Shown here one piece after another: positions 11,601 to 34,119 of a DNA stretch of 64,000 nt. Each line of letters starts with the position of its first letter. Position 1 is the first letter of the stretch. Origin of the DNA: Candidatus Microthrix parvicella Bio17-1 (GTDB lineage Bacteria; Actinomycetota; Acidimicrobiia; Acidimicrobiales; Microtrichaceae); assembly GCF_000299415.1 (NCBI RefSeq), contig NZ_AMPG01000001.1, forward strand, positions 992,001-1,056,000, written 5' to 3'. The position numbers and the translations under genes are program-made. The notes beneath the pieces were generated by a model, which searched no databases, was not told the DNA's origin, and saw nothing but the letters and a program-made list of their open reading frames with translations.

Positions 11601-13008
11601 GGTCCCGGGCCGCCTCGTTCCGCTGCACAAGCGCTGCGCGCACCACTTTGAGGTCGTCTCGGCGCGCCCGCTCGGCCACCCGCGCACCGGGCTCCAGGCG
11701 GTCGGGACGGCGGGCCTCGTCTCGGGTGAGCGTCCAGGCGATATCGGCGGCATCGGCAGCGTCCTCGACCTCGGTGAGCGCAGCCTCGGCTCCAGACAGC
11801 GACTCGGCGGCCCGCTCGGCGGCCGTCGACGCTGCGGATTGAGCCGCCTCCGCACGCCCGGCGCAGGCGTCGCGCTGCTCGGCGGCGTTGCGCTCGACCT
11901 TCGCAGCACGGCCCACCGATCCCTCCACCTCAACCAGGCTGCTGGCATCCCGGTAGGCGGGTGACTCCAGCACGGCGCTGCGGCGGCCGTCGGCAGCCGA
12001 TCGCTCCAGTGCCGCGCCCCGGCGTTTGGACTCGTTCTCGGCGATCGCACCGTCGAGGCGCGTCGCCTCGGCCTCGGCGTCGACCACCGTGCGGTTGGCC
12101 CGGCGCAGCACCTGGGCGGCGTCGATCACCGCCGCCGATCGGCCCAGCGCCTCACCCCCGAGGTAGGCGACGTAGACGGGCACGAATGCGTCAACGATGG
12201 ACCGGGTGACCTTCAGGTCGGCCAGGTCGCGCTGGGTGGCCTCGAGGTCGTCCAGGCTCTGGGCCACGTCATCGAGCACCCGATCGTCCAGCGACGGCAG
12301 GCCGCCGGAAAGCACCTCCGACAAGAGGCGAAGATCGAGCTTTCCGGCCAGCTGCGGACGGCGCAGCACTCGGATCAGGGTGGTGAGCTTCTGGTGGCGG
12401 TCCGCCCCCAGACCCAGCAGCGCACGATCGACCGCAGCCCGATAGGTCTCGGCGGTGTCGAATACGGCGGCGTTACCCAACTCGTCCCGCAGGCGGCCCC
12501 GGGTGAGGGGCGACCCGTCGGGCGCCAACTCGAAGTCGAGGCCGACCCGCTGGTCGGTTACGAAGAACCACGACGCGGTGTTGGTGGACGCCGCGGTGGC
12601 TCGGGCGCCGCAGCCGATGGTGAGGTGTTCGGGCGTCGCTCCATTGCCCGAGGCGGTCCGCTCGAACTCCATCCACACGTAGCCCAGCCGCTGCTCGTGA
12701 CGGAACTTGCGCGACCCTGCATCGTCATCCCGCAGCACCCCCAACAGCAACGACCGCATCGAGCGACCGCCGGCGAATGGGTCCATGGCGTCGGCACTCA
12801 TCACCCCCTCCACCAGGAAGGGAAAGAGCAGGGCGAGCGCATTGGACTTGCCCGAGCCGTTGGGGCCCCGGAGGATCAGGCGTCCGTCGGCAAAGCTGAA
12901 CACCTGGTCGTCGTACTCCCACACGTTGCGGACGCCCGCCCGGTGTGGCCGCCACCGATCGGCCACCTCATCGGAGTTTGCCTGGTGGTCGGTGCCCGTC
13001 TCGCTCAC
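8629..13008 (-). CDS. jetC: Wadjet SMC-like ATPase JetC (TIGR02680-like)
   Basis: This 1,459-residue SMC/RecN-like ATPase has Walker A LRGPNGSGKSNA at 48-55 and an ABC signature QLSGGEQAMAL near residue 1323. A Walker B, RMIALDEAFAGID, follows closely, then a TGHELWGAY switch region. Between them lie about 1,000 residues of Ala/Glu/Arg-rich coiled coil with a central hinge-like region. An acidic low-complexity insert (Asp/Pro/Ser-rich) lies around residues 1040-1095. Family knowledge: JetC dimerises, binds JetA and JetB, and extrudes DNA loops to sense plasmid size. The start is the GTG at 13008 overlapping the jetB stop. The open frame continues 123 residues upstream, but that stretch reads as an Arg/Gly-rich shadow of jetB. 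Confidence 0.92.
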   Translation of the reverse strand: MSETGTDHQANSDEVADRWRPHRAGVRNVWEYDDQVFSFADGRLILRGPNGSGKSNALALLFPFLVEGVMSADAMDPFAGGRSMRSLLLGVLRDDDAGSRKFRHEQRLGYVWMEFERTASGNGATPEHLTIGCGARATAASTNTASWFFVTDQRVGLDFELAPDGSPLTRGRLRDELGNAAVFDTAETYRAAVDRALLGLGADRHQKLTTLIRVLRRPQLAGKLDLRLLSEVLSGGLPSLDDRVLDDVAQSLDDLEATQRDLADLKVTRSIVDAFVPVYVAYLGGEALGRSAAVIDAAQVLRRANRTVVDAEAEATRLDGAIAENESKRRGAALERSAADGRRSAVLESPAYRDASSLVEVEGSVGRAAKVERNAAEQRDACAGRAEAAQSAASTAAERAAESLSGAEAALTEVEDAADAADIAWTLTRDEARRPDRLEPGARVAERARRDDLKVVRAALVQRNEAARDHARAEEAASQALRAVDEADVAVAEAETSTRQRRTELSESVERWVAGAPWLAEVVDAAAEREARDPASVDAQPVDTAEVRERLAAAVGTVGESGAPSLSAAFREATDPARVGLIERRSASKGHIDTLTAAVGSLETQRDEVASETDPGPAPPTWRTEREPGRPGAPLWRCCDWAPGVDDHDRAQLEAALDASGLLDAWIEPDGDEPATRTSEGSADSWFASLSDAEPGDPTGLASVLVPSVPEGSGLDEQVVARVLASIELTDHGAINSGPRRGASGVSAGGRFALGPLRGRATKPEPEYVGATARAERRRRRLAELDALIVAAAEAVEVEIAVFQTLEAALVALRAASSTLPSEDGLLRSLNAERSARSHAEARREVAERAEEAESVAAGSAAAAESDLQSTAARHRLVGDDASLDRVTELVDRYAGAVRSALTIRRTAESDAERADQDAERAAEATQLLSNAERDLAAAAEEHSTLASRAATLRERLGDDAEAPLEALKRAQADLDEIEVRFDVLWEALGELQTSRGRAGEAADQARAAVARHEATLTARSERLPVLRRRDLLALLLPDHFPADAPAPDPSETRQGDGDAAPSIEADAGSSARPDHSVDASRGPEAHVVPSEELPVDAVAFARWLNGRLDGVAPTPQQREQNIAALDRAQKKVIDELHHGYDAAFPHDDDLVTVEINSDAGMVSLADLTAELARQDAALQSYLTEGDREVFERFLLNQVSHQLRRLLTDADEFVAGVNQALADVRTTSRLGVDLGWELNTDDPGIRQAVKLLRHDTEQMGEDERQALRSFFERVIRAQRAEDPTAGYRAALEKALDYRAWHEFRPYLRTADNKRVKLTRNQYRQLSGGEQAMALHQPLFAAAAAHYDRADPTAPRMIALDEAFAGIDEEMRGKLMGLTVAFDLDVILTGHELWGAYGEVPSVAVHDLLRRPPAEGVSVVSLRWDGHELIEDDELAGTATESLLQVAPDEGLFAFDPDGT

Positions 13009-14336
13009 GAGTGATCGTCTCCAAACAACTGTGACGTCAACGTGTTCTGCCTGGCGGCCACGCCGATCTCCGCCTCGGTGTCGGGGCGATAGCGGGCCAG
13101 CGCCGCGTGCACCCTCAGCCTGTCGTCCTCGACACCCAGCAGGCCAAAGCGGCCCAGCAACTCCCTCACCTCTCGTCGCAGCTTGTCGGGCGACTCGCGG
13201 TAGTCCGACGAGAACCTCGATCGGTACTCCTCGACGATGTCCTCCCAGGCCTGCTCGCCGGCAGCATCGCCCACCCATCGTTCGGCCGCCACGGCGGGCC
13301 GAACCTCCGGGTCCCGGACCATCTCGGCGGCGACCTCCTCGCCGGTTGCCGCCAGGTCGACCAACGCGGCACCCCACAACAACGCAGCCTGGGTGAGCGT
13401 TCCCCCGCCGGGGAAGCGGTGCTTCGACTCGGTGATCGGCTCGATCTGGGCGTCCACCAGGCTCATGCCCTCAGCCCGGGACTCGACGTGACAGCCGGTG
13501 AGCTGCTCCAGGTCGCGGACCAGACGGGTCCGTCGCTCGCGCACGTAAGCCAGCTCCTCCGGTCCGAGGTCGATGTACGACATCACCGGGCCCTCGACCA
13601 GTCGACGGGCCAGCCGGTGGCGCAGCGCCTGGGGCCGATCCTCCGTGCCGGGCGCGGTGGGTTCCACCAGAAAGTCGGCGGCCTCCCCAACGCCCCGCAG
13701 CACGCTCGGCGAGCTGACCAGCAGCCGGGACACACAGTCCCGGTCCACGTCATAGAGCGCATCACCCTCGGCATCGTGATCCAGCCACTGGTCGGCGCCT
13801 CCGTCGCGCAGGCCGAGCACGCCGCGGTCCTCCAGCCACGTGACCGCGTCGACGAACGCTCTCCGTTGTGTGTAGACGGTGAGGTCAACCGGCAACGCGT
13901 CGTCGCCCGAGCGCAACCGCAGCACGGCGTCGGCCAGGCGGGACGCAGTGGTCTGGTCGCCCAGCTCCTCCAGCGCCGCCAGCACCAGACACAGGAACGA
14001 ACACGCGACGTGACCCAGCGGACGGAGGGTACGGGTGAAGGGCCCCCGGTGAACCGAGGTGGTGGCCGCCCGCCGATAGAGGCGGGCCGAGCTGCGACCG
14101 ACATCGAGACGGAAGCCGAGCACCCGCGAGAACTCGTTGCGCAGCGGCACCTCCCAGCGGCGCACCGTCGTCAACGCCCTGGGGTTTGGCCAGGTTGGAG
14201 TGACCAACGGATGGCCGAGCAGCAGGCGGGCGGTGCGCTGGAAGTCCTCCAGTTCGCCGGCGTCGATCTGCACCGCCGCCCGCGGTCCGGCCGTCGTCCC
14301 GCCGAAGGGAGCGATCAGGCCCGTCGCATCGCTCAC
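13005..14336 (-). CDS. jetB: Wadjet subunit JetB (DUF2398, TIGR02678-like)
   Basis: This 443-residue protein matches the DUF2398/TIGR02678 family. It has an N-terminal DFQRTARLLL...PLVT segment, a central FLCLVLAALEELGDQTT helix, YTQRRAFVDAVTWLEDRGVL, and a C-terminal part with RVHAALARY. In the Wadjet complex JetB is the KITE-like winged-helix partner that sits on the kleisin JetA and joins it to JetC. The GTG start overlaps the jetA stop by four bases, and the stop overlaps the jetC GTG the same way. This fits a tight operon in which subunit ratios are set by re-initiation. Confidence 0.87.
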   Translation of the reverse strand: MSDATGLIAPFGGTTAGPRAAVQIDAGELEDFQRTARLLLGHPLVTPTWPNPRALTTVRRWEVPLRNEFSRVLGFRLDVGRSSARLYRRAATTSVHRGPFTRTLRPLGHVACSFLCLVLAALEELGDQTTASRLADAVLRLRSGDDALPVDLTVYTQRRAFVDAVTWLEDRGVLGLRDGGADQWLDHDAEGDALYDVDRDCVSRLLVSSPSVLRGVGEAADFLVEPTAPGTEDRPQALRHRLARRLVEGPVMSYIDLGPEELAYVRERRTRLVRDLEQLTGCHVESRAEGMSLVDAQIEPITESKHRFPGGGTLTQAALLWGAALVDLAATGEEVAAEMVRDPEVRPAVAAERWVGDAAGEQAWEDIVEEYRSRFSSDYRESPDKLRREVRELLGRFGLLGVEDDRLRVHAALARYRPDTEAEIGVAARQNTLTSQLFGDDHS

Positions 14337-15940
14337 GGTGTCGCTCCGACCGACTCGATGTGCAGGCGATGCTCGCCGATGGTGAGGGATCCTCGGCGGG
14401 TCTGTATGACCATGCCGTCGGGGTCGCATCGAAATGTCGCCTGGGCGCCCTCGACACGCACCGGGTCGTCACTGCCCGGCTCGTCGCCGACCGAACGCAG
14501 GTGAGCGGCCCGGTCGAGCAGTTCGAACAAGATGGTCGCCTCGGCGTCAGACAACACCCGCCCTTCCACCGGTCGGGCGCACAGCCGCGCGGCCGCCTCG
14601 GCCCGGGCCGACTGGGCCGCCCGATGCTCGGCCATCAACTGCGCCTTGGTCAACGCGTAGTCGGTGGCCTGTGCCGGGCGACCGGGCGAGGGGCGGCGCC
14701 CGTGTTCGCGCAGCGTCACCGGCACGTTCACCGGCGGCGCATCCCACCACGAGTCCGATGCGGCGACGGACTCGTCGTCGGTCTCGCCATCGCTGAGATG
14801 CAGCGGCCGCCCCAGGCCGAAAGCGGCATCGAACAGTTCGGCGGCGGCCCGGTCGTCGATGCGCCGGAACCAGCGGGCCAGCACCAGCAGCTCGGATGCC
14901 CGAGTGATCGATCGCCGGGCGCTTTCGGTGACCTGCCGCAACAGGGCAAGCAGCTCGCGGATGGCGGTCGTGGTGGCCGCGGTCAGGTCATCAGCCCCGG
15001 AGGGTCGATCACCGACCGACACGAACCAGTCCGACAGGCCGGTCCAGCGATTACGCCACAGCGCGGCCCGGTCGCCGGTGTCAAACAATCCAGCAGAGTC
15101 GTCACCCGCCGCCGCCAACTCACCCAACCGTTCGATGCCCCGTTCGTTGACCGCCTCGACGCCCCGGGCCACCAAACCACGTTGGGTCATCAGGTGATCG
15201 AGGAACTGCTCGAGGTAGTCGATCAGCAGGTCCTTGTAGACCAGAAACCTGGCTGGGTCCACGTCGTGTTCCCGCCGCAGCTGGGCCACGGCAGCGTGGA
15301 AGTCGCGGGCGTTGGCGGCCAGTTCCCGAAGCGACCCGTCCAGGTCGCGCAGGCGCAGGTACACCTGCTCGGCATCGGCGCGGTCGATCGCGTCGGCCAG
15401 CAGGGCAAGGTTGTCGCGGATGTCCCGGAACAGTGTTCGCTGCAGCGAGCCGCCCTGGTCGGATGCCCCGAGCACGGCAAGCACCGCCTCGTGGGAGGCC
15501 TGACCGGCTGCGGTCAGCTGCCACAGTGACCGGCGCCGTCGGAAGTCCTCCAGGCGGGAGACCCGGACCGTGTCCTGGGTCAAGGTGAGGTTGCCCCAGT
15601 CGCGCAGCTGCTCCAGGGCCGGGTCCAGCCCTTCGACGTCGATACCCGCCCCGGTGAGTTCGGCCGCGATGCGCTCGGTGCGGATCTCGACCTCGTAGCG
15701 CTCCCGGGCGGCGACGAACACCGCCAGGATCGCCAGGTAGATCGGTGCGTTGGTCTCCGTGGCGGCTTTCAGCACCCTCAGCTTGTTACGTTCCTCACCA
15801 TCGAGCACCCGAAGGTGCAGCGCACCGGGGCCTTGGTCCGGCATCGGCGATGCCTCGGCCTGCCGGTGATCAGCGCCGGTCGTGGCCTTGGCGGAGGGCT
15901 GCGCCTCCCCCGCCGACGGGACGCTGTCCAGAGGATTCAT
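14333..15940 (-). CDS. jetA: Wadjet subunit JetA (DUF2397, TIGR02677-like)
   Basis: This is the first gene of the Wadjet operon, about 535 residues. The family-like region begins near residue 45 with LRVLDGEERNKL and YLAILAVFVAARERY. A winged-helix-like region and the segment RRRSLWQLTAAGQ follow, then a long helical middle and a C-terminal RVLSDAEATILFELLDRA. DUF2397 proteins serve as the kleisin-like subunit of the JetABC motor. The start is uncertain: the ATG at 15940 is chosen, but an ATG at 15844 with GAGG upstream and a GTG at 15979 are also possible. The first 30 residues or so are low-complexity. No promoter was convincing in the 150-base gap upstream. Confidence 0.85.
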   Translation of the reverse strand: MNPLDSVPSAGEAQPSAKATTGADHRQAEASPMPDQGPGALHLRVLDGEERNKLRVLKAATETNAPIYLAILAVFVAARERYEVEIRTERIAAELTGAGIDVEGLDPALEQLRDWGNLTLTQDTVRVSRLEDFRRRRSLWQLTAAGQASHEAVLAVLGASDQGGSLQRTLFRDIRDNLALLADAIDRADAEQVYLRLRDLDGSLRELAANARDFHAAVAQLRREHDVDPARFLVYKDLLIDYLEQFLDHLMTQRGLVARGVEAVNERGIERLGELAAAGDDSAGLFDTGDRAALWRNRWTGLSDWFVSVGDRPSGADDLTAATTTAIRELLALLRQVTESARRSITRASELLVLARWFRRIDDRAAAELFDAAFGLGRPLHLSDGETDDESVAASDSWWDAPPVNVPVTLREHGRRPSPGRPAQATDYALTKAQLMAEHRAAQSARAEAAARLCARPVEGRVLSDAEATILFELLDRAAHLRSVGDEPGSDDPVRVEGAQATFRCDPDGMVIQTRRGSLTIGEHRLHIESVGATP

Positions 15941-16090
15941 CGACGCGACGGTATCCCAGGCGCCGCACACCCTTCCCACCGGACCTGATGCAACCTTACC
16001 GGCGCCCCCAAGGCCGTCAACATGGTTGCAGGCGGCCTGACCGCCGACAGGATCGTCGACGAGCTTCCGTCGTTGGAGCTGGATGATGTT

Positions 16091-20282: not shown

Positions 20283-20816
20283 TTACGCCGGGTGGCGCTG
20301 GTCGATCCCCGTCATCAGACCTTGATACTCCTCGTCGGTGAGCGATCCGTCGCCGTACCCCTGCTCGATGGATGCGACCAGATCGACACGCTCCGATCGA
20401 GCGACCACCAGGGTGCACCCTCCGATGCGAGCCAGTGGGGTGTCGAGGAATGCGAAACGCAGGTAGGCGGGCGGGAGCTCTCCAGCGGTCAGCAGCAGCA
20501 CACCGCGCAGGTCGTTGTCGCCGGTGTCCCGGTCCACCCGTAGCCGTTGTCGGAACGCATCGTGATCAAACAGTTCGCGGGTGATGAGGTCACCTGCCGG
20601 CGATCTGATCTCGGCCACGAGCGGGCATTCGAGCGTCCGAGCATCGAAGCCCGGGCGATCGTCGTCGAACATCACCTGCATGACCGTGTGGTCGGTACCC
20701 TCGATCCGCTTCGAGTCGACCGAGATACCCAACACCCCCCGCTCGTAGGGGTCCGACCCCGTTGCGGTTTCCGCCTGCGCAGCCACCCCTGACAACTCGA
20801 CCCTCAGCAACTCCAT
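20283..20816 (-). CDS. Hypothetical protein with SHOCT-like C-terminus
   Basis: This 177-residue soluble protein has no recognised enzyme family. The middle is beta-rich with alternating acidic and hydrophobic residues. The last 30 residues (ASIEQGYGDGSLTDEEYQGL) resemble the short SHOCT helix pair, in which a Gly-x-Leu-T-x-E-E-Y/F turn links two helices. The ATG at 20816 has GGGAG directly upstream; a longer frame to 20891 is possible. It is divergent from the amidohydrolase operon, with 158 bases between, and no neighbour gives a function. Confidence 0.5.
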   Translation of the reverse strand: MELLRVELSGVAAQAETATGSDPYERGVLGISVDSKRIEGTDHTVMQVMFDDDRPGFDARTLECPLVAEIRSPAGDLITRELFDHDAFRQRLRVDRDTGDNDLRGVLLLTAGELPPAYLRFAFLDTPLARIGGCTLVVARSERVDLVASIEQGYGDGSLTDEEYQGLMTGIDQRHPA

Positions 20817-20974
20817 CTCCCGGAGGCTATGAGTGCCGGCGCCGCCATGCCGAAGCCACATCTGGTGGGGCGGAACCAACCCGACTTCCACCTGACGGAG
20901 CGTCAGATGCTGGTAGGTTCCGACGGCGGTGCCACCAGCGGCGATTTCAGCAAGGCTTCGGGGGGAGCGAACCT

Positions 20975-22255
20975 ATGGCACAACCTGCGGCTGCATCGGC
21001 CGACCAAGCGCCTGCAACCATCGAGCCGAACTACGTCGTCATCTCGGCCGATTGTCACGGCGGGGCCAACATTGTCGACTACCGGCCGTACCTGGAGCCC
21101 AGGTACCACGACGATTTCGATGCGTGGCGCACGTCCTTCGAAAACCCCTACCCCGACATCGAGGGTGACGACGCCGAACGCAACTGGAACTCGAACCGCC
21201 GCCTGGCCGAACTGGAGGCCGACGGGGTGGTGGCCGAGGTCGTGTTCCCCAACACCATTCCTCCATTTTTTCCCAAGACGTCGCTGATGCATCAGCCGCC
21301 GGGAGCGTCCGACGGCGATCTCGAGCGTCGTTGGGCCGGCCTTCGCGCCCACAATCGCTGGCTGGCCGACTTCTGCGGCGATGCCCCCGGGCGCCGGGCG
21401 GGCATCTGCCAGATCATGTTGCACGACGTCGAGGGATCGGTCAGCGAGATCCGCTGGGCGGCCGAAGCGGGCCTCACAGGTGGGGTGCTACTTCCCGGAG
21501 CCCCTCCCGGATCGGATGTGCCACCGCTCTATGCCCCGGAGTACGAACCGATCTGGTCGGTGTGTGAGGAGCTCGGCCTCCCGATCAACCATCACAGCGG
21601 CAGCGCCGCCCCCGACTACGGCGACTATCCGGCCGCACAGGCCATGTTTCTGCTCGAGGTGGTGTGGTGGGCGCACCGCACGCTGTGGCACCTCATCTTC
21701 TCCGGCGTGATGGAGCGGCACCCCAACCTGCAGTTCGTGTTCACCGAGCAGGGCACCGCCTGGCTACCGGAGGAGATTGGGCGGTTGGACTACTACCACC
21801 ACCGTCTCAGCGGCGCCGGTGCCGCAGCGGGGTCGCAGGAGTCCAAGTTCGGCGGGGCGATGGGTGCGCTGTCGCTGAAGCCGTCGGAATACTGGGCCCG
21901 CCAGTGCCAGCTGGGTTCCAGCTTCATTCGGGCAGCAGAGGTGCCCCTACGCGACCAGGTAGGCGTCGGGCGCATCATGTGGGGCAGCGACTTTCCACAT
22001 CTCGAGGGGTGTTGGCCGTACTCCCACCAACACCTCCGCCTGGCCTTTGCGGGCGTACCCACCGACGAGGTTCGGGCCATGGTGGGCGGCAACGCAGCCC
22101 GGGTCTACGGCTTCGACCTTGATGCACTGGCGCCGCTGGCGGCCAGATTTGGACCGACCGTCGCTGAGGTGGCCCAGCCCCTTGGCGTCGAGGACATTCC
22201 CGACGATTCGCTGCGCTGCCCGGCCTTCGCATCGGCCAGGTTTCTGGGCGGGTAG
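20975..22255 (+). CDS. Amidohydrolase-2 family metal-dependent hydrolase, first copy
   Basis: This protein of about 426 residues belongs to the amidohydrolase-2 (TIM-barrel) family, which includes decarboxylases and hydrolases of aromatic and related acids. It carries SADCHGG near the N-terminus as the first metal-ligand motif, a His pair in INHHSGS, and the barrel-end Asp in IMWGSDFPHLEG. The ATG at 20975 has GGGGGAGCG at about 7 bases; earlier in-frame starts read as Arg/Pro-rich non-family sequence. It opens a five-gene operon and is a diverged paralogue of the fourth gene, sharing the YVVISADCH opening and the WG(S/N)DFPH(L/P)EG(C/T)WP motif. The reaction is unknown; two such enzymes in one operon suggest sequential steps. 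Confidence 0.85.
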   Translation: MAQPAAASADQAPATIEPNYVVISADCHGGANIVDYRPYLEPRYHDDFDAWRTSFENPYPDIEGDDAERNWNSNRRLAELEADGVVAEVVFPNTIPPFFPKTSLMHQPPGASDGDLERRWAGLRAHNRWLADFCGDAPGRRAGICQIMLHDVEGSVSEIRWAAEAGLTGGVLLPGAPPGSDVPPLYAPEYEPIWSVCEELGLPINHHSGSAAPDYGDYPAAQAMFLLEVVWWAHRTLWHLIFSGVMERHPNLQFVFTEQGTAWLPEEIGRLDYYHHRLSGAGAAAGSQESKFGGAMGALSLKPSEYWARQCQLGSSFIRAAEVPLRDQVGVGRIMWGSDFPHLEGCWPYSHQHLRLAFAGVPTDEVRAMVGGNAARVYGFDLDALAPLAARFGPTVAEVAQPLGVEDIPDDSLRCPAFASARFLGG

Positions 22256-22320
22256 CCCGCCGGCCACATCCACACTTCGACTTCGACACTTCGACACGCT
22301 CCAGCATCCGGGGGGATCAC

Positions 22321-23136
22321 ATGAGTCAATTGAGATACGGGCCACGGCCGGTTGCCGACACCACCGACGGCAAGGTACCCAACCGGGAGGTTGCCGCCAC
22401 CAAGATCGGGGCCTGGTCCACGTCGCTGACCGCCACCTTCCTCACCGATCCCGAGGTGATCGCCGCCGTCCTGCCCCCTCCGCTCGAGCCGCCCGCCGAA
22501 CCAATGGTGAAGGTAAGCATCTCGAGGGTGGACCTGGGTGGAGGACGAGCTCCGTTTGGGGCAGGCACCTTCGCAGTGGCGGCCCGCCACCGGGACACCG
22601 AGGGCTACTACCCCTTGCTGATGCCGATGACCACCGAGCAGGCCGTCATCGGCGGCCGCGAAACCTTCGGAGAACCCAAGAAGCTTGCGGACATCACGCT
22701 GGAGACCGTGCCGGAGCAATCATCAGGGAGCGCCGTCCGCGGGCTGGTCACCAGGATGGGGGTGGGCATCATCGAGCTTGACGGCACGTTGGGCGACGAG
22801 TTGGACCCACCCCCGTCCGGGGAACGTTTGGACTACTACCTGAAGTTCCTCCGCGACCCGGGCGGCGCAGGCTTCGATGACGACCCGTGGCTGGTGTACT
22901 GCACCCGCGAGACCGAGACCCGCAGCCATCGGGCCGCCAACGTTGCCCTCACCCTGCGCGAGTCGCGCTTCGATCCGGTGGCCGACATCCCGATCCTCGG
23001 ACCGGTGACCGCCACGCTGTCCGAGCGGCGGAGCCAACAGGCGGGCCGTCTGGTGGAGCGGGTGCCCGCGGCCGACGTCCTCCCCTACGCGCACCAACGT
23101 TATGACGACGTGTCCCCAGTGGACACCCGGAAGTAG
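22321..23136 (+). CDS. Acetoacetate decarboxylase-like protein
   Basis: This 271-residue member of the acetoacetate decarboxylase fold family carries the hallmark RETFGEPKKLADI. Its Lys-Lys pair (120-121) corresponds to the Schiff-base lysine and its neighbour in true decarboxylases. Upstream segments (YYPLLMPMTTEQAVIGG) also match. The ATG at 22321 has GGGGGGATC at good spacing. Family members may decarboxylate beta-keto acids or do other Schiff-base chemistry, so the substrate need not be acetoacetate. Being second in an operon with amidohydrolases, an SDR and a P450, it probably acts in the same pathway. Confidence 0.8.
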   Translation: MSQLRYGPRPVADTTDGKVPNREVAATKIGAWSTSLTATFLTDPEVIAAVLPPPLEPPAEPMVKVSISRVDLGGGRAPFGAGTFAVAARHRDTEGYYPLLMPMTTEQAVIGGRETFGEPKKLADITLETVPEQSSGSAVRGLVTRMGVGIIELDGTLGDELDPPPSGERLDYYLKFLRDPGGAGFDDDPWLVYCTRETETRSHRAANVALTLRESRFDPVADIPILGPVTATLSERRSQQAGRLVERVPAADVLPYAHQRYDDVSPVDTRK

Positions 23137-23142
23137 GTCGGA

Positions 23143-24015
23143 GTGAAGCAGTTCACCGACCGGGTTGCCGTCATCACCGGTGGCGCAGGCGGCGTCGGGG
23201 CGGCCATGGCCGAGCGCTTCGCCACCGCGGGCATGTCGGTGGTGATCGCAGACCTGGCCGAGGATCGCGTCGCCACCACGGTCGCCAAGCTCGCCGGGCA
23301 GGGTGCCAGGGCCATCGGCCTGCCCACCGACGTTGGCGATCTCGCGTCGGTCGAGGCCCTACGCGACGCTGCCTACAGCCACTTCGGCGCCGTGCACGTG
23401 CTGTGCAACAACGCCGGCGTGGGCGCCGGGGCGGAGGGAAAGATGTGGGAGCACACGCTGAACGACTGGGGCTGGGGCCTCAACGTCAACCTGTGGGGCA
23501 TGATCCATGGGGTCAAGGCGTTCGTGCCCGCCATGTTGGAGGGCGGCGAGCCGGGCCACATCGTCAACACCTCGTCGGGCAACGGCGGCATCGCCCCCCT
23601 CCCCAACACCGCCGTTTACGCCACGTCCAAGGCCGCGGTCACCGCCTTCACCGAGGTGCTCTACGGCCAGTTGCACTCAATCGACGCCAACATCGGCGTG
23701 TCGGTGCTGTACCCCGGTCCCAACGTGTTGAAGACCGGCCTGCTGGAGTCGTCGGGCCACCGACCCGACGCGTGGGCCAACGACACGCCCCGCACAACCC
23801 CCTACACCACCATTGCGTCGTTCGAGGCCGCCATGTTGGCGGCGGGCGTCGACCTCACGTACACGCCGGTGGAGTTCGTCGCCGAGGCCACCTTCGACGC
23901 CATCCGGGCAAACAGGTTCTGGATCCTCCCCGAGAGCGAGCGGATCGACCAACGCATCCGCACCCGGGCCGACTCGATGTTGGCCCGTTCCCAACCCACC
24001 TACATGGAGGCCTGA
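23143..24015 (+). CDS. SDR-family oxidoreductase
   Basis: This 290-residue classical short-chain dehydrogenase has an NAD(P) loop TGGAGGVG at 12-19, an Asp-Leu after the second strand that leans towards NAD, NNAG, and a catalytic Ser in NTSSG with Tyr159-x3-Lys163. The GTG start follows the preceding stop by only six bases. The C-terminal extension (VDLTYTPVEFVAEATFDAI) is longer than in minimal SDRs and typical of family members with bulky substrates. It probably oxidises or reduces a hydroxyl/keto group of the operon's intermediate. Confidence 0.87.
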   Translation: MKQFTDRVAVITGGAGGVGAAMAERFATAGMSVVIADLAEDRVATTVAKLAGQGARAIGLPTDVGDLASVEALRDAAYSHFGAVHVLCNNAGVGAGAEGKMWEHTLNDWGWGLNVNLWGMIHGVKAFVPAMLEGGEPGHIVNTSSGNGGIAPLPNTAVYATSKAAVTAFTEVLYGQLHSIDANIGVSVLYPGPNVLKTGLLESSGHRPDAWANDTPRTTPYTTIASFEAAMLAAGVDLTYTPVEFVAEATFDAIRANRFWILPESERIDQRIRTRADSMLARSQPTYMEA

Positions 24016-24016
24016 C

Positions 24017-25321
24017 GTGACCCAACCCACCGACGATCCGTACCTGGTCATCTCGGCCGACTGCCACGCCGGACTGCCCAACGAGCAGTACCGGGAGTGG
24101 CTCGACCCGGACGTTCGTGAAGCCTTCGACGAGTCGATCATCGCCCGCACCCGGCAGCAGGAGATGGCCGCACAGGGGTTCCTCAACACCGACTTCGCCG
24201 AGGAGTGGAACGCCGAGAACGAAGAGGGCCTGCGGGGCGGCTGGGACGGCGAGCGGCGGGACAAGGAGCTTTCGGCCGACGGGGTGGTGGGTGAGGTCAT
24301 CTTCCCCGACGCCGACTCGGTGACGTCGGGCGCCTCGGCACCGTTCGGTGCAGGCCTGGGATCCGGATCGGACACCCCACCCGAGTTGCTGCTGGCCGGG
24401 GCCACCGCACACAACCGTTGGCTGGCCGAACTGTGCGCCACCAGCCCCAAGCGTCGTGCCGGCATCGCGGTGGTGCCGATCATCGCCGGGGTGGACGAGT
24501 CGGTCGCCGAGATCCGTCGTGCCCACGCATCCGGCCTGTGGGGCGGCATCCTCATCCCGCCGATGTGGCAGCCTCACGATCCCTACCACCACGCAAAGTA
24601 CGACCCGATCTGGGCGGTCTGTTCCGAGCTGGGGCTGCCGGTGCACGTGCATTCCGGCCCGGCAGACAAGGCCTCGTACGGGCCCCACATCGGGATCTAC
24701 ACCACCGAGGTGCGGTTCTGGTCTGGTCGACCCCTCTGGTTCCTCATCTGGTCGGGCGCGTTCGAGCGGTTCCCCGACCTGCGCTTCGGGGTCACCGAGT
24801 GCGGCGCCTTCTGGGTCAACGACCTGCTGTGGCGCATGGACCTGGTGTACGAGCGCGACCACGGCAGCCAGAAGCTGGGGGAGCAGCTCACCAGCGATAT
24901 GTCGATGCGGCCGAGTGAGTACTTCGATCGCAACTGCTTCATCGGTGCCTCCAACACGCTGCGGGTGGAGATGGCCCGCCGCTACGAGATCGGCGTGGGC
25001 AACATCCTGTGGGGCAACGACTTCCCTCATCCCGAGGGCACCTGGCCCCACACCGCCGAGTTCCTCGCCGACGTGTTCCGGGACATCCCCGACGACGAGA
25101 CCGCCGCAATGCTCGGTGGCAACGCCGCCGACATGTACGACTTCGACGTCGAGGCCCTCCGCCCGTTGGCCAACGAGTTTGGGCCGACCCCAACCCAGCT
25201 GGGCCAGCGCGGCCCGCAGAGCCAGGCCGACATCGAAGCCAAGTGGGCGGACGCCAAGCGGGCGGGCCGGCCGTGGCGGACCGGCATCGAGACGTGGCCC
25301 AGGGCGGCTCCGGCCTCATGA
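24017..25321 (+). CDS. Amidohydrolase-2 family metal-dependent hydrolase, second copy
   Basis: This 434-residue paralogue of the operon's first gene has the SADCHAG metal motif at the N-terminus, His in VHVHSGP, and Asp in ILWGNDFPHPEGTWP. The GTG at 24017 lies two bases after the SDR stop, with GGAGG just upstream. The open frame extends further upstream only as a shadow of the SDR gene. Its stop overlaps the P450 start as ATGA. The tail is short and basic. It probably acts on a different intermediate from the first copy. Confidence 0.85.
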   Translation: MTQPTDDPYLVISADCHAGLPNEQYREWLDPDVREAFDESIIARTRQQEMAAQGFLNTDFAEEWNAENEEGLRGGWDGERRDKELSADGVVGEVIFPDADSVTSGASAPFGAGLGSGSDTPPELLLAGATAHNRWLAELCATSPKRRAGIAVVPIIAGVDESVAEIRRAHASGLWGGILIPPMWQPHDPYHHAKYDPIWAVCSELGLPVHVHSGPADKASYGPHIGIYTTEVRFWSGRPLWFLIWSGAFERFPDLRFGVTECGAFWVNDLLWRMDLVYERDHGSQKLGEQLTSDMSMRPSEYFDRNCFIGASNTLRVEMARRYEIGVGNILWGNDFPHPEGTWPHTAEFLADVFRDIPDDETAAMLGGNAADMYDFDVEALRPLANEFGPTPTQLGQRGPQSQADIEAKWADAKRAGRPWRTGIETWPRAAPAS

Positions 25322-26577
25322 CGGTCGCTGTGGCGCCACAGTTCAACCCGTTCGACCCGTCGTTCACCGAGTCGCCCTACGAGCTGTATGCCAACCTGCG
25401 CGACAACGACCCGGTGCAGTACTCCGATCTGCTGTGCGGCTGGGTCGTCACCCGCTACGACGACGTGGCCGCCCTGCTCCGCGATCCCACCATCTCGTCA
25501 TCGGTCCACAGCGCCACGCCAACCTCGGTCACCAAGATCGAGATCGAGCGTCTCGCCGAGCAACCCCGTGCCGCCCGCACCATCGTGATGATGGACGACC
25601 CCGATCACGCCCGAACCCGCAAGCTGATGGCCAAACCGTTTCGTGTGGCCGCCATCGAGCGGTTGCGGGGACGGGTTCACGAGCGCATGCACACCGCGCT
25701 CGACGAGCTTGCAGACCGTGGCCGCACGTCCGGGGGAACCGCTGGGCCGGTCGACTTCGACCTGGTCGAGGACTTTGCGTACCCATTACCGGTCGAGATC
25801 TTCTCCGAGATGCTGGGCGTGCCCGGTGAGGATCAACCCAAGTTCCGTCGCTGGACACAATGCGTGGCCCGCTCGGTCGACCCGGTCCTCCCGGCCGACG
25901 AGCGCTACGAGTCAATCGTCGCACTCGACGAGATGTATGAGTACCTCGCCCACCAGGCCGCCCTGAAGCGCGCCGAACCGGCCAATGACCTGATGTCGCA
26001 CCTGGTGCATGCCGAGATCGACGGGCAACGGCTGAACGATCTCGACCTGATGAGCCAGCTGGTCACCCTGTACATGGCAGGGCACGAGCCCACCTCGGTA
26101 CTGATCGGCAACGGCACGCTGGCACTCACCCGCCACCCCGACCAGATGGAGATGCTTCGCAACGACCGCTCGCTGCTGCTCAACGCCATCTCAGAGCTGT
26201 TGCGCTACGACGGACCCAACCAGTTCACCCGCCGCATCACCACCCGGCCCACCACGCTCGGAGGGGTGGAGTTGCCCGCCGGAGCCGTCGCTTACGCAGG
26301 CCTGGCATCAGCCAACCGCGACCCCCGGTTCTGGGGCGACGACTCCGAGCAGGTTCGGGTCGACCGGGCCAACGCCTCCAAGCACCTTCAGTTTGGCGCC
26401 GGGCCCCACGCCTGTTTGGGCTCGCATTTGGCCAGGCTTCAGGCCGAGGTGGCCTTCACCGCCATCCTCGATCGGCTCGACGGTTTGGAGGTCACCGGCC
26501 AACCGGTGGCGGCCACCCGCATGTTTCTGCGCGGCCTCACTTCGCTGCCGGTTCGGGCCACCATCGCTCCACGCTGA
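25318..26577 (+). CDS. Cytochrome P450
   Basis: This 419-residue soluble bacterial P450 has an I-helix motif YMAGHEPTS, an ExxR pair in ISELLRYD, and the heme loop FGAGPHACLG with Cys366 as the iron ligand. The ATG overlaps the preceding stop (ATGA), showing tight coupling to the amidohydrolase operon. It uses no fused reductase, and no ferredoxin gene is nearby, so partner proteins must be encoded elsewhere. The sequence recalls actinobacterial steroid, terpene or fatty-acid hydroxylases, but the subfamily cannot be assigned by eye. Confidence 0.92.
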   Translation: MTVAVAPQFNPFDPSFTESPYELYANLRDNDPVQYSDLLCGWVVTRYDDVAALLRDPTISSSVHSATPTSVTKIEIERLAEQPRAARTIVMMDDPDHARTRKLMAKPFRVAAIERLRGRVHERMHTALDELADRGRTSGGTAGPVDFDLVEDFAYPLPVEIFSEMLGVPGEDQPKFRRWTQCVARSVDPVLPADERYESIVALDEMYEYLAHQAALKRAEPANDLMSHLVHAEIDGQRLNDLDLMSQLVTLYMAGHEPTSVLIGNGTLALTRHPDQMEMLRNDRSLLLNAISELLRYDGPNQFTRRITTRPTTLGGVELPAGAVAYAGLASANRDPRFWGDDSEQVRVDRANASKHLQFGAGPHACLGSHLARLQAEVAFTAILDRLDGLEVTGQPVAATRMFLRGLTSLPVRATIAPR

Positions 26578-26711: not shown

Positions 26712-27533
26712 TCAACCAGCGCTGAGGGCAGACCCGTCCGCGTTGCGTTCGGCGGTGAACCCATCCTCGGTGAAGCCGATCACCTTGCCCCGGTTGATGC
26801 TGACCCAATCGCGGGCCTCCAGGTAAGGCTTGAAGGTCTCGGCGATGCGCACCTCGTCGGCGGTGGTTTTGGGTTGTTGTAGCTCGAAGACGTCGGGAAA
26901 CTCGCACCAGGCGGTCACGGCGTGCCACAGCCGCACGGCGGCCTCACCCGTGGGTGGGTTGATCAGTACCGGGCCAAACAGGCAGCGCTCGCCCAACCCG
27001 GCGTCGTCGAAAAACAGGGTTGGCACGCCGTATCCACCGGAACCAACCACCCGATCGTGGTCGGCCCGTACCTCGTCGTTGGTGGACGGATCGGCGAGCG
27101 CCTCATCGACCATGCCCGGCTCAAGTCCGAGCTCCGCCAGCAGGTGGCGGGCCACCGCCGGGTCGTGGGGACGTTGGCCCTCCTCATGAAGCGCTCGACC
27201 GGTTCGCTCGTACCAACGGTCAAGGTCGTCGTTGCTTCGTCGGCGCAGCAGCGCCCCGATGCGCATGATCGACCAGCCGTAACTCCACTCGCGCTCCCAC
27301 GGGTGCTTCCTACCCTCCACCCGGTTGATCTCCTCCAGGCTGAAGAACCGCCAGTCGATCGTGATGCCCAGTTGGTCGCGCACCGAACGAATCCACTTGG
27401 ACGTCTGGTAGGCGTAGGGGCACAGCACATCGAAGTGGAAGTCGACCCTCGTCGGGCTCGGCCCGCTCGACGTCTGAGTGCCCGCTGGAGCAGCGTTGGT
27501 TGGTATCCGGTTGGATGGCAGAGCTTCGGTCAT
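26712..27533 (-). CDS. DsbA-like thioredoxin-fold protein with a single active-site Cys
   Basis: This 273-residue DsbA/2-hydroxychromene-carboxylate-isomerase fold protein begins with [19 protein letters not shown]. Only one Cys (38) occupies the active-site turn (CPYA instead of CxxC). This is usual for isomerase-type and mycothiol-dependent relatives that use a monothiol mechanism. The cis-Pro region GYGVPTLFF is intact. The ATG at 27533 has AGAGGGGG at good spacing. By resemblance to actinobacterial proteins of this class it may be a mycothiol-dependent reductase, but that assignment is inference. Confidence 0.75.
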
Positions 27534-27627
27534 GTGGTGGCCCCCTCTGCCGGTCAACCTACCGACGGCCAACTCGAAGGAACGCCACGCCTGCGGCGCG
27601 GTCCCGCATCGCTGCGAGAATGACGCC

Positions 27628-29097
27628 ATGTCTCGGAAGCGCAAAGCCAACAAGAAGCGGCAGGGTGGTCGTGTCACCCCGTCAACGTCGAAAAAGCCGG
27701 TGACGCGACCCGGTGCGGGGTTCGCCCCGTTCGGGCTCGGTGACGAGGAGTTGAGTTCCGGTTGGCCGGCCAACGCCGCGGCTCCGGGCCCGCAGCCCGA
27801 GGTGCGCGACGTGTTCTCCGCCATGGCGGGCGCGATCGGGTCGCTGCGTGACGGCCACCCGGCCGACGTTGAGCAGTTGGCGTCGGAGTTCGTCGCCATC
27901 CTGGCCATCGCCGCATCCGAACAGGGCGACGAGCCCGCCGACGGTTCTCCGAGCGCCGCCAATCGGGCGCGCGCCCTCGAGATGCTCGGCGTGGCCGCCA
28001 GGTTGCTGGCCGAGGCTGAGGCCCAGCGGGCACGGCCTCATGCGGACTACCTCGACTGTCTGCGGGCACTCGACCCGTTCTTGGACGATGCGGCACGGGT
28101 GGCGGCTCGATCAGCGGCTGAACGGGCAGGCGACCGGGCACCCGTGCCGCAGTGGGCGGATGCCATCTGGAGTGGACAGCCGATCGGAGCGTGGCGGGCA
28201 GGCGACCTGCTGGGCGACAGCGTCAACCTGGGTGTCGAGTTGGACTGGCCCGGCGGCTGGGAGCGGCGCGTGCTGTGGGGCAGCCTCATCATCACCGAGG
28301 GTCCCTTCGTCAACGACCTGGTGGTGTCCACCCTTGACGAGTTCACCGAGGTGTACACGCCCGGAACCGGGCACCCGGCGGGACCCGACGGTCGGCCCTA
28401 CCTGGCCGACGTCATCAGGTTCCTTGACGAGGCCGACCTGGCAGCAACACTGCGGGACTTGAAGCTGGGGCTCTTGGTTGCCTCTGAGCACGCGGACGTG
28501 CCGGTGCAGCCCGGCCACGACAGCCTGGCGCCACTCGCCGGCCTCCTACTCAACCGCCTCCCCGTGGCGGGACCCGAGGAACCATCGTCAACGTCGGAGG
28601 CCGAACGGGATGAGCTGGTGTCGTCGTTCCTGAACTCCCCTGAGCGGTCGGTGCTCAATGGCGTTGCGCCCGTCGAGGTGCGAGAGCGCTGCGAGCCGCT
28701 GTTCGACTACGTCGAGCAGCGGTCCGATGGCGACGTTCATCGCTGGAGTCCCGCCGTGGCCGCTGCGTTCCTCGACTGGTACCACCAACGCACGACGTCA
28801 TCAGACGACGCTCCCGATGACGGGGCGGAGCATGACCGGTTCAGACAGGTGGTGGAGGCTTGGATCCGTTATTGCCACCGGCTGAAGGGATGGCCCGAAT
28901 CGGTGACCGTGGAAGCCCTGGCCCGCCTCGATGCGCACGTTCAGCCGGGCATCGACCCGGCGAAGGTATGGGGGCAGGCGCTCAGCGATGGTCTGGAACA
29001 CCTCGCCGAAGAGTTCGGGGGAAACCTTGGGTTCGGGGACGAAGTGGGTGATGCCAACGAGTCGGGAACTCGTCCGGCCGATGGGTCGTCTGAGTAA
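27628..29097 (+). CDS. Hypothetical protein with basic N-terminal tail
   Basis: This 489-residue protein belongs to no recognised family. It starts with [14 protein letters not shown] and a Lys/Pro/Thr-rich linker, much like the tail of the DUF2786 protein at 16091-17605. The rest is helical and acidic, with Trp-rich patches ([25 protein letters not shown]) and an acidic C-terminus. The ATG at 27628 has GAGAA upstream; the frame extends further but reads as shadow sequence. The next gene, a lipoprotein, begins two bases after this stop, so the pair is probably co-transcribed. Confidence 0.6.
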
Positions 29098-31701: not shown

Positions 31702-34119
31702 ATGGACGCTGCGAACAAAGACTTCGGCGGGGCGAGCGCCCGCAGCGATGCATCCGATCAGGAGGCGTGGGACGTGGCCATCGAGGCCAATGAGCTCGTC
31801 GGCACCGACCTGCCCGGCGCCCTGGCCCTGTTCGACCGGGCCATCAAGTTGTCCGCCCGGTCGGGTGCTGCCGACCCCGGCCTGCAGCAACTCTGGGCCG
31901 AGGTGGCGATCGAGGTTGGGGTTCCCGACGCCCAAACCCGCCAGGTCATCGACTCCGTCATCGCCACCACCCCAGACGATGATCCCGGAGCCATGGCGTA
32001 CGCGCTCGGAACGTTGGCCCGCCTCGAGCACCGGGCCCACAACTCCTGTCAGGCACAGACGCTGATGACCCGCGCCGTCGCCCTCCACGCCACAGCCGGT
32101 CAGCTTGAAAGCATGGTCAGCACGCTGGCGTTTCAGGCCTCTATGGCGATGACCGACGGCGACCGAAACACACAGGTCGAGCTGCTCACGCGGGCGCTGG
32201 CAACCACCGATCATCACAGCGATGAGCCTTGGGCAGATGGGTGGCGACAACAGCTGAACGCAACGCTGCACGAACAGCGCACCCCTTGGGACGAACTGAC
32301 CGCCGCCACCGCCCCCACGATTCGCAGCGACGCTGCGCTGGCACGGGCCCGTCACCTGAGCAGTCTCGGCGACGTCGGCGGTGCCCAGGCGGCCTACCGG
32401 TTTGCGTTGTTGGCCATGGAACGCGACGGTGCCGTCACGGCCTCACGATGGAGGGTTCTGCTGGAGGTCGGACGGTTTCTCTCCGAGAACGCCGATGTGA
32501 TCGAGGGCGGACACGAGCTGGCTGCGGCCAAGATGCTCGAAGCACTGGAGCTGGCCAGGCGGTCCGGCAGCAATGACTGGCAGACCGACGCCGCAGTCGA
32601 CCTCGCGGCCTTGGCACCCAGCGTGTCGGGCGCACTCCGTGGACGCATCGATGCCGAAGTTGAGGAGACCACCCGGCATCTCAGCCAACAGGACCGGCCG
32701 GACACCCACGCTGCGCTCCTGGGGGCTCGGATCCTGGGGCTACTCACTGAAGGCCGGGCCGACGAGGCCCGTTTGTTGGTGGTCGACCTGACGAAGCTGG
32801 CGGCTACACCGATCGATCGCATGACGGCCGCCAACTACCGGGCGGCAGTGGAATCGGTGGACGAGGACCCGCGTGGTGCCCTTTTGGCACTTGAGGACTG
32901 CCGGGCTGCGCTGAGAGACATGGTCGCAGACGCCGATGCCGACGGATGGACCCTGCGATTCGACCAGGTCCAAACCCTCACGGAAGGAGCAGCCAACCAG
33001 GCGACACTGTTGAACGATGGGGATGTCACCCGGCGCTGGATTGAGATCGGCAAGGCGTATGCGACTGGCATCGGGAAGGCCGATGCGCTGGATGCCCTCG
33101 ACGGCATCGACCTGAGCCGACAGCTCGCTGAACGGCTGCGGACCGATCAAGCCTCGATGATGACCTGCACCGACCTTGGCCATCGGCTGATCGTCACGCT
33201 GACCGACCCAAGTGGACGCTGTCGCTCCCACCGCGTCGAAACTCCAACGCCGATCAACAGCCTGATTCCGCAGTTGGCGGGAACCGCCGCCGCCATCGCA
33301 GCCAGGGCTCAGCTGTTCGCCTCGCTCGAAACCGTTGGGGCACTCCTCGGCGAGATCCTCACCGAGGCGGTGAGCGGGGCATCGCACCTGTACGTGATCG
33401 CCGACGGCTCGATGTGGTCGTTGCCTTGGGCAGCGCTGCCGTTGGCCGACGGCCGGATGCTGAGCGATGCCCTCAGCGTCAGCCTCGTGCCCAGTATCGG
33501 GTGGTTGGTGTCATCGCCCAGAGGCAGCGACCTGGCGGTGGACACTGCGCTGGCCATCGGGGTCGGTGAGGAGCAGGGGTTCGGGCCGTTGGCCGCATCT
33601 GCAGTGGAGGTCGCTGATCTGGGGTGGCTGCGGTCCACGCTGCTGATCGATGACGCAGCCAAACCGCACGTGGTACTCGACGCGCTCGGTGACCACGATG
33701 TGGCCTACCTCATCGCCCACGGCGAGGTGAGCGACAACGCCGACGTGCTGGCGGCGGCCTCGATCGAGTTGGCCGGGAAGGCTCGCCTGGACGGCCGCAT
33801 GTTGGCGTCAACAGCGCATCCTGTGGCTCGGACGATGATGCTCAACGCCTGCTACTCGGGCGTGATGCCCCGAGGACGGACCGATCTCCCGGGAGGGTTC
33901 TGGACCGGGCTCCTACGCGGTGGAGCGATGTCGGCCTGCATCACCACCGCCGCGGTCGATCCGACCCCTGCACATGCGATCGCGCTCGGGTACCTGGCCC
34001 AACTTCGGGATCCGACGATTGGCCCGGGTGCGGCGTTGCGCAGCGCTCAGCTGGAGCTGCGCGAATCTGGAGCACCGCCCGAGGACTGGGCGTGTCACAC
34101 ACTGGTCGGCGTCGCGTAA
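31702..34119 (+). CDS. TPR-CHAT protease-like protein
   Basis: This 805-residue protein has an N-terminal ~530 residues of helical TPR-like repeats (EANELVGTDLPGALALFDRA and similar Ala/Leu-rich helix pairs) and a C-terminal CHAT (caspase-like) domain. The predicted catalytic dyad is present: His673 in YLIAHGEVS and Cys717 in LNACYSGVM. CHAT proteins are caspase relatives often used in bacterial conflict systems, where a sensor activates cleavage of a partner. Here the partner may be the membrane protein immediately upstream. The ATG at 31702 has no strong Shine-Dalgarno and may be reached by coupling. Its stop faces the EthA-like stop across four bases. Confidence 0.82.
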   Translation: MDAANKDFGGASARSDASDQEAWDVAIEANELVGTDLPGALALFDRAIKLSARSGAADPGLQQLWAEVAIEVGVPDAQTRQVIDSVIATTPDDDPGAMAYALGTLARLEHRAHNSCQAQTLMTRAVALHATAGQLESMVSTLAFQASMAMTDGDRNTQVELLTRALATTDHHSDEPWADGWRQQLNATLHEQRTPWDELTAATAPTIRSDAALARARHLSSLGDVGGAQAAYRFALLAMERDGAVTASRWRVLLEVGRFLSENADVIEGGHELAAAKMLEALELARRSGSNDWQTDAAVDLAALAPSVSGALRGRIDAEVEETTRHLSQQDRPDTHAALLGARILGLLTEGRADEARLLVVDLTKLAATPIDRMTAANYRAAVESVDEDPRGALLALEDCRAALRDMVADADADGWTLRFDQVQTLTEGAANQATLLNDGDVTRRWIEIGKAYATGIGKADALDALDGIDLSRQLAERLRTDQASMMTCTDLGHRLIVTLTDPSGRCRSHRVETPTPINSLIPQLAGTAAAIAARAQLFASLETVGALLGEILTEAVSGASHLYVIADGSMWSLPWAALPLADGRMLSDALSVSLVPSIGWLVSSPRGSDLAVDTALAIGVGEEQGFGPLAASAVEVADLGWLRSTLLIDDAAKPHVVLDALGDHDVAYLIAHGEVSDNADVLAAASIELAGKARLDGRMLASTAHPVARTMMLNACYSGVMPRGRTDLPGGFWTGLLRGGAMSACITTAAVDPTPAHAIALGYLAQLRDPTIGPGAALRSAQLELRESGAPPEDWACHTLVGVA

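Follow-up and report, generated by a model that had tools for sequence, protein, structure and literature searches.

A conserved actinobacterial gene module with two predicted dinuclear oxygenases, an acetoacetate decarboxylase-like protein and a dehydrogenase in Candidatus Microthrix parvicella

The window analysed here is a stretch of 64,000 nucleotides, positions 992001-1056000 of contig C1 of Candidatus Microthrix parvicella Bio17-1, whose genome assembly has 4,202,850 bases in 13 contigs. Five genes on its + strand seem to form an operon-like cluster. They encode two paralogous PF04909 proteins (AH1 and AH2), a protein with the acetoacetate decarboxylase (ADC) fold, a short-chain dehydrogenase/reductase (SDR) and a cytochrome P450, in the order AH1-ADC-SDR-AH2-P450. 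The first four genes are a module that recurs across actinobacteria, and the P450 is attached to the 3' end of this module. Sequence and predicted structure together suggest that AH1 and AH2 are oxygenases of the PtmU3/AibH2 type (amidohydrolase-related dinuclear oxygenases, AROs), which would feed a C-C cleavage proceeding through a ketone and a Schiff base. The probability of this reading is put at roughly 0.6.

Distribution of the four-gene module

The scan of named species genomes with an ADC alignment gave 493 stretches encoding ADC relatives, of which the top 80 loci were retained. Many of these are from Streptomyces; Frankia, Pseudofrankia, Streptacidiphilus, Actinomadura, Embleya, Bailinhaonella and uncultured Acidimicrobiia are also represented. 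Twenty further stretches were added, and removal of same-contig loci (L112, L113, L118, L125, L127, L132 and L148) left 93 loci, all of which hold the ADC gene. Twenty of the 93 have less than 4 kb on one side, leaving 73 whole loci (non-duplicate, with flanks of 4 kb or more). The loci were chosen by ADC similarity and are skewed to Streptomyces, so that the following counts are biased as a census.

In 71 of the 73 whole loci, the ADC gene has both AH1 and AH2 within 5 kb, and 64 of the loci contain all four genes. Among the 93 loci, the full set of four is present in 77 and lies on a single strand in 73. The number of AH genes around the ADC gene in these 93 loci was 180 within 5 kb and 0 at 5-10 kb; the clustering of AH genes with ADC exceeds chance. 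The true conserved unit is the four-gene module AH1-ADC-SDR-AH2. An earlier note on this DNA had proposed a unit of five genes. Its operon-like cluster is retained here, and the conserved unit is reduced to four genes with a lineage-specific P450.

The four-gene order AH1-ADC-SDR-AH2 of the window is shared by many Acidimicrobiia and by some metagenome-assembled genomes of Frankiaceae. In Streptomyces the order is ADC-SDR-AH2-AH1, usually with a divergent TetR gene. In locus L103, an IclR gene diverges from SDR-ADC-AH1-AH2, which is followed by genes for an enoyl-CoA hydratase and a CoA-transferase III, and in L092 the neighbours are a thiolase, an enoyl-CoA hydratase and a KshA-type Rieske oxygenase. 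The surroundings of these two loci hint at CoA-linked breakdown. Other recurrent neighbours in Streptomyces (SURF1, exonuclease/BRCT, YhhN, a fatty-acid-hydroxylase-like protein and a zinc alcohol dehydrogenase) look like stable chromosome context and were set aside as pathway genes.

In the family to which the window belongs, matches to the ADC protein occur in 22 of 33 genomes, and besides the window's own none exceeds 71 bits. At the class level, matches are found in 81 of 395 genomes, and 37 score at least 134 bits (counted by eye). Therefore, the window's copy of the module is patchy among the surrounding lineages, via transfer or loss. Nine own-family loci were re-fetched. Seven of them (L191-L197) carry a distant version of the module, in which the ADC protein shows 27-31% and the AH2-type protein 44-49% identity, with an SDR nearby; the sole AH1-type match beside these is a fragment in L194 with 31% identity. 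The remaining two (L198 and L202) have the ADC gene without other module genes. A search of a plasmid collection with the ADC protein gave 10 records, each with less than 60% identity and with coverage below 80% of the protein.

Metal ligands, relatives and pairing of AH1 and AH2

The PF04909 family comprises hydrolases, carboxylases, hydratases and monooxygenases (PMC10811679). In the monooxygenase subunit AibH2, two metals are bound via Asp25, His27, His211, Glu265, Asp337 and His340, and the partner AibH1 binds one metal through five residues, the sixth ligand being absent (PMC7782822). The residues at the AibH2 positions are D26, H28, H207, E258, D339 and H342 in AH1, and D15, H17, H212, E261, D335 and H338 in AH2. 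This set of six ligands (D, H, H, E, D and H, arranged as D-x-H, H, E and D-x2-H) is kept in 92 of 92 AH1-type and 92 of 92 AH2-type proteins, in an alignment that includes the window and duplicate loci and from which members shorter than 360 residues were dropped. Judging from these ligands and from the relationship to PtmU3 described below, AH1 and AH2 are most likely two-metal monooxygenases of the ARO class, not hydrolases.

Four further PF04909 proteins of the same genome (G000:C1:818926, 1191496 and 1148573, and G000:C2:249968; L001, L002, L004 and L005) also have all six ligands, and the organism may possess six such dinuclear enzymes in total. In addition, the ARO columns of the Mycobacterium avium protein MAP2389c (PDB 4dzi), a structural-genomics entry titled "putative metal-dependent hydrolase", hold Glu and D-x2-H, and a D-x-H lies near the start of the protein, as read by eye. 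It may be an unrecognised ARO.

For both families, PtmU3 was the first and DitZ the second solved relative, with E values of 6.1e-42 and 9.5e-33 for the AH1-family profile and of 3.5e-36 and 2.1e-28 for the AH2-family profile. The fold comparison covers AH2, one of the two PF04909 TIM-barrel proteins. Its predicted model (pLDDT 80, pTM 0.85) gave PtmU3 as the best match (Z 35.2, rmsd 3.1, 340 aligned residues, approximately 26% identity). The first nine matches are AROs throughout, comprising PtmU3, three entries for TruffO, one for SfbO and four for AibH1H2.

PtmU3 belongs to platensimycin/platencin biosynthesis. This diiron enzyme acts ahead of the ring cleavage in a diterpenoid, probably on a CoA-linked substrate. 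The literature describes it as a diiron or dinuclear hydroxylase of the amidohydrolase superfamily (one source is PMC7782822). The aligned ligand residues of PtmU3 (PDB 6OMP) and of AH1 and AH2 agree from the fifth strand onward. However, PtmU3 needs no auxiliary mononuclear partner, and the paralogues studied here come as a pair that is accompanied by an ADC-like protein and an SDR. DitZ from Rhodococcus rhodochrous (PDB 8UYR) matches the AH2 fold with a Z score of 30.3; no paper on it was found in the open-licence literature.

AibH1H2, from the aib cluster of Rhodococcus wratislaviensis, resembles the present pair in that adjacent PF04909 paralogues lie in a catabolic cluster and the six ligands of AibH2 are shared. 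AibH1 has a single metal, whereas both AH1 and AH2 have all six ligands. Furthermore, the aib cluster contains the Rieske ferredoxin AibG and the reductase AibF, and the operon here has neither. SfbO and the TruffO proteins (PDB 8SM6-8SM9) are similar to AH2 in fold (Z 33.6-31.5) and have the ARO ligand set, but they adjoin small Rieske proteins (PMC10811679), none of which is found beside AH1 and AH2.

AH1 and AH2 show 40% identity across 405 aligned residues. In a rapidly computed tree of 100 rows, including a spurious long one, the AH1 and AH2 sets form two separate groups with a similar inner order, the window, L114, L091 and L093 being together in both. This matching order fits joint inheritance. 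The AH1 cluster holds at least two outlying members (L130 and L110) on long branches. At the AH2-to-AH1 junctions, an exact 4-bp overlap is present in 49 of 57 loci (not de-duplicated), which suggests that the two are translated in a coupled manner, as the partners of a heteromer would be. AH1 and AH2 probably work as a pair.

Partner enzymes and surroundings in the window

The ADC-like protein has a Schiff-base lysine pair, K120/K121, which is present in 14 of 14 relatives and aligns with the pair in 3bh2 (K115/K116 of true ADC). An invariant glutamate, Glu118, lies two residues before K120. The predicted model (pLDDT 84) best matched acetoacetate decarboxylases (Z 25.5-25.2), followed at Z 24.3-22.9 by Swit_4259, an aldolase-dehydratase from S. 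bingchenggensis, an archaeal ADC entry and MppR; the next row falls to 8.2. The protein thus resembles the ADC enzymes (3BH2; Swit_4259, 5UPB; MppR, 4JMC) both in fold and in the lysine pair. E61 and E76 are the active-site catalytic glutamates of acetoacetate decarboxylase. These two residues of the Clostridium acetobutylicum enzyme are not kept in the ADC-like protein, and its identification as a true acetoacetate decarboxylase was rejected on this ground. It is an ADC-like superfamily enzyme with Schiff-base lysines, for which retro-aldol cleavage or dehydration would be as possible as decarboxylation.

The SDR retains the glycine-rich NAD(P) motif (GGAGGVG at 13), NNAG at 89 and the YxxxK motif (YATSK at 159), and its nearest solved relatives include lignin C-alpha dehydrogenases.

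The P450 has the hallmark residues of its family, namely the heme-ligating Cys366 in HACLG and the ExxR residues E293 and R296. Ancestral CYP125 is among its nearest solved relatives, a weak hint at sterol- or terpenoid-like substrates. Orthologues directly 3' of AH2 are found in L093 (genome G412, 47% identity) and in L114 (a groundwater actinobacterium, 52%). A search of 198 genomes of the order gave three P450s of approximately 50% identity besides that of the window: those of G853 and G646 and the known one of G412. In G853 (locus L221), the contig starts inside the ADC gene and continues with the SDR, AH2 and P450, so that any AH1 gene would lie beyond the contig edge. In G646, the P450 is apart from the module-like genes, which sit on a different contig. 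The earlier note had proposed a search for the same gene order elsewhere; the order of four genes is widespread, and the exact order of five occurs in the window and two other genomes, perhaps with a third that is cut by the contig edge. The P450 protein cluster is represented in 8 of 101 loci, most of its members being about 30% identical to the P450 of the window, and an indivisible five-gene unit was rejected. The P450 is an accessory, lineage-specific addition at the 3' end of the module.

As a separate observation, residues 254-259 of the I helix read AGHEPT in the aligned P450s of the window, L093 and L114. The proline in this motif occupies the position of the conserved threonine in the oxygen-activating acid-alcohol pair of most P450s.

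The five genes and their likely neighbours are listed in Table 1. The intergenic gaps are, in order, 65, 6, 1 and -4 bp, the last being an ATGA overlap between AH2 and P450. The Pfam scores are 121 and 98 bits for the two PF04909 proteins, 146 for PF06314, 146 for PF00106 and 96 for PF00067, all well above the curated cut-offs. The coordinates confirm the tight packing, the GGAGG-led start and the ATGA overlap reported earlier, and Pfam agrees with each of the families that had been named. The likely flanking genes are both on the - strand; therefore, the five genes stand alone as a transcription-sized unit.

Table 1. Genes of the cluster and likely flanking genes (window coordinates)
Feature	Position	Strand	Start or remark
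AH1, first PF04909 protein, predicted two-metal monooxygenase (Fe/Fe or Mn/Fe)	20975-22255	+	ATG
ADC-like protein, PF06314	22321-23136	+	ATG
SDR (classical), PF00106	23143-24015	+	GTG
AH2, second PF04909 protein, predicted dinuclear monooxygenase	24017-25321	+	GTG, GGAGG 5' of start
Cytochrome P450, PF00067, accessory fifth gene	25318-26577	+	ATG
202-residue open reading frame, likely flanking gene on AH1 side	20283-20891	-	no Pfam match
Rv2466c/DSBA-type protein, likely flanking gene on P450 side	within 26712-27908	-	

Elsewhere in the window, a complete-looking Wadjet anti-plasmid system is encoded on the - strand at 7337-15970, with JetA (DUF2397), JetB (DUF2398), JetC and JetD in order; each gene is a strong PADLOC match to the JetA2, JetB2, JetC2 or JetD2 model. 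At 31702-34119 on the + strand, a protein of 805 residues contains a CHAT protease domain and has no PADLOC match.

Proposed pathway and alternative readings

In the proposed pathway, the AROs would hydroxylate an aliphatic or alicyclic acid, perhaps linked to CoA, and the first, O2-dependent step would be carried out by one of them. The SDR would turn the new hydroxyl group into a ketone. K120/K121 of the ADC-like protein would then form a Schiff base with this ketone, and a neighbouring C-C bond would be cut, either through decarboxylation or in a reaction of the retro-aldol type. The other ARO would perform a second hydroxylation, and the P450 might add one further oxidation in the lineage of the window. 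The earlier note had envisaged stepwise oxidation, hydrolysis and decarboxylation of a cyclic or aromatic compound. Of this, a stepwise oxidative breakdown is probably correct and the hydrolysis step is dropped; decarboxylation is one possibility among others, since both active-site glutamates of acetoacetate decarboxylase are missing from the ADC-like protein. Nothing was found that points to an aromatic substrate. A bolder version, in which AH1 and AH2 form a heteromer with a catalytic two-metal site in each subunit, unlike AibH1H2, and, together with the SDR and the ADC-like protein, cleave a terpenoid or lipid acid oxidatively, is rather unlikely as a whole; two C-H hydroxylations, ketone formation and Schiff-base cleavage would then run as a cycle.

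Several observations weigh against the proposed pathway. A small Rieske ferredoxin adjoins 90% of AibH2-like proteins (PMC10401708), whereas neither such a ferredoxin nor another redox partner is encoded in the five-gene operon according to Pfam. A Rieske motif scan of the 93 loci revealed one real Rieske protein only, the KshA-type oxygenase of L092; the frequent CEHCR...H matches in Streptomyces belong to a different, zinc-type protein, as judged by eye. Four Rieske-domain genes are present in the own genome, elsewhere than in the operon. The margin of the fold comparison is small, since a decarboxylase at rank 10 has a Z score of 31.0 against 35.2 for PtmU3. This means that fold alone separates the two classes weakly, and that the ligands and the sequence matches carry the argument. 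The ligand signature is itself common in the own genome, being present in six of seven PF04909 proteins and absent from one: it separates PF04909 subfamilies, yet is not rare in this organism. In none of the 14 relatives of the ADC-like protein is there a Glu at the columns of E61 and E76, and C-C cleavage by this protein is for this reason the weakest of the inferred steps. Finally, the module is incomplete by one gene in nine of the 73 whole loci, and the substrate is a guess.

The metal ligands also bear on a rival view of AH1 and AH2, in which they would be hydrolases or decarboxylases with a mononuclear metal centre (ACMSD, gamma-resorcylate or 5-carboxyvanillate type) and act in ring degradation. 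Such enzymes share the Pfam family, and decarboxylases do match both profiles (4icm, E 2.8e-19 for AH1 and 2.5e-16 for AH2) as well as the AH2 fold. However, PtmU3 and DitZ match much better, and all six dinuclear ligands are kept, two of which are absent in 4icm and 2dvt. At the aligned columns, these decarboxylases have His in place of Glu and Tyr or Phe in place of the last His (read by eye); none of these decarboxylase-type residues occurs at the two columns in AH1 and AH2, which show Glu and His. On these ligands the hydrolytic or mononuclear assignment was rejected, and such a reading is very improbable. The hydrolysis attributed to the two amidohydrolases in the earlier note is probably wrong, since the metal site is that of a dinuclear oxygenase with PtmU3 closest. 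It is also unlikely that one PF04909 protein alone is a working oxygenase with the other as a structural partner. AibH1H2 is a precedent, since in this heterotetramer one kind of subunit is dinuclear and the other mononuclear (PMC7782822), and AH1 and AH2 are always different paralogues found together; nevertheless, AibH1 is described in that source as lacking the sixth ligand, which is retained throughout both aligned sets here.

The ADC-like protein might instead be a true beta-keto acid decarboxylase, and the pathway a simple oxidative decarboxylation. This is possible, if somewhat doubtful: its closest structural matches are acetoacetate decarboxylases and it retains the lysine pair, but the glutamate columns speak against this role. 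Another view is that the module is biosynthetic: its few enzymes would tailor a natural product or an unusual lipid, and the ADC-like protein would be an aldolase-dehydratase. The role of PtmU3 in platensimycin biosynthesis fits this view, as does the presence of MppR (an enduracididine biosynthesis enzyme by its PDB title) and the Streptomyces aldolase-dehydratase among the fold matches. However, no polyketide, peptide or terpene synthase is seen among the annotated recurrent neighbours (an incomplete annotation). The module also has divergently oriented regulators of the TetR or IclR type, and some of its copies lie beside beta-oxidation genes. A biosynthetic role seems improbable.

The module apparently represents an undescribed, widespread combination of known enzyme classes. 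No description of it was found in the open-licence literature; most subscription journals were outside this scope, and one may be in print there. The same literature gave no named pathway with this exact gene set, as the earlier note had stated. AROs, a young class of oxygenases, have so far been found via neighbouring Rieske ferredoxins, and few members are characterised (PMC10811679; PMC10401708). The context here differs in that the Rieske gene is missing, each operon has a pair of AROs, and the two partner enzymes are chemically informative. The module also allows the frequency of wrong "amidohydrolase" annotation in actinobacteria to be gauged, and its relatives in cultivable Streptomyces, Frankia and Actinomadura offer a route to the substrate. 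If the bolder version of the pathway is true, the "amidohydrolase" annotation would be hiding a catabolic route that is common among Streptomyces, Frankia and Acidimicrobiia, and Rieske-guided searches would miss it.

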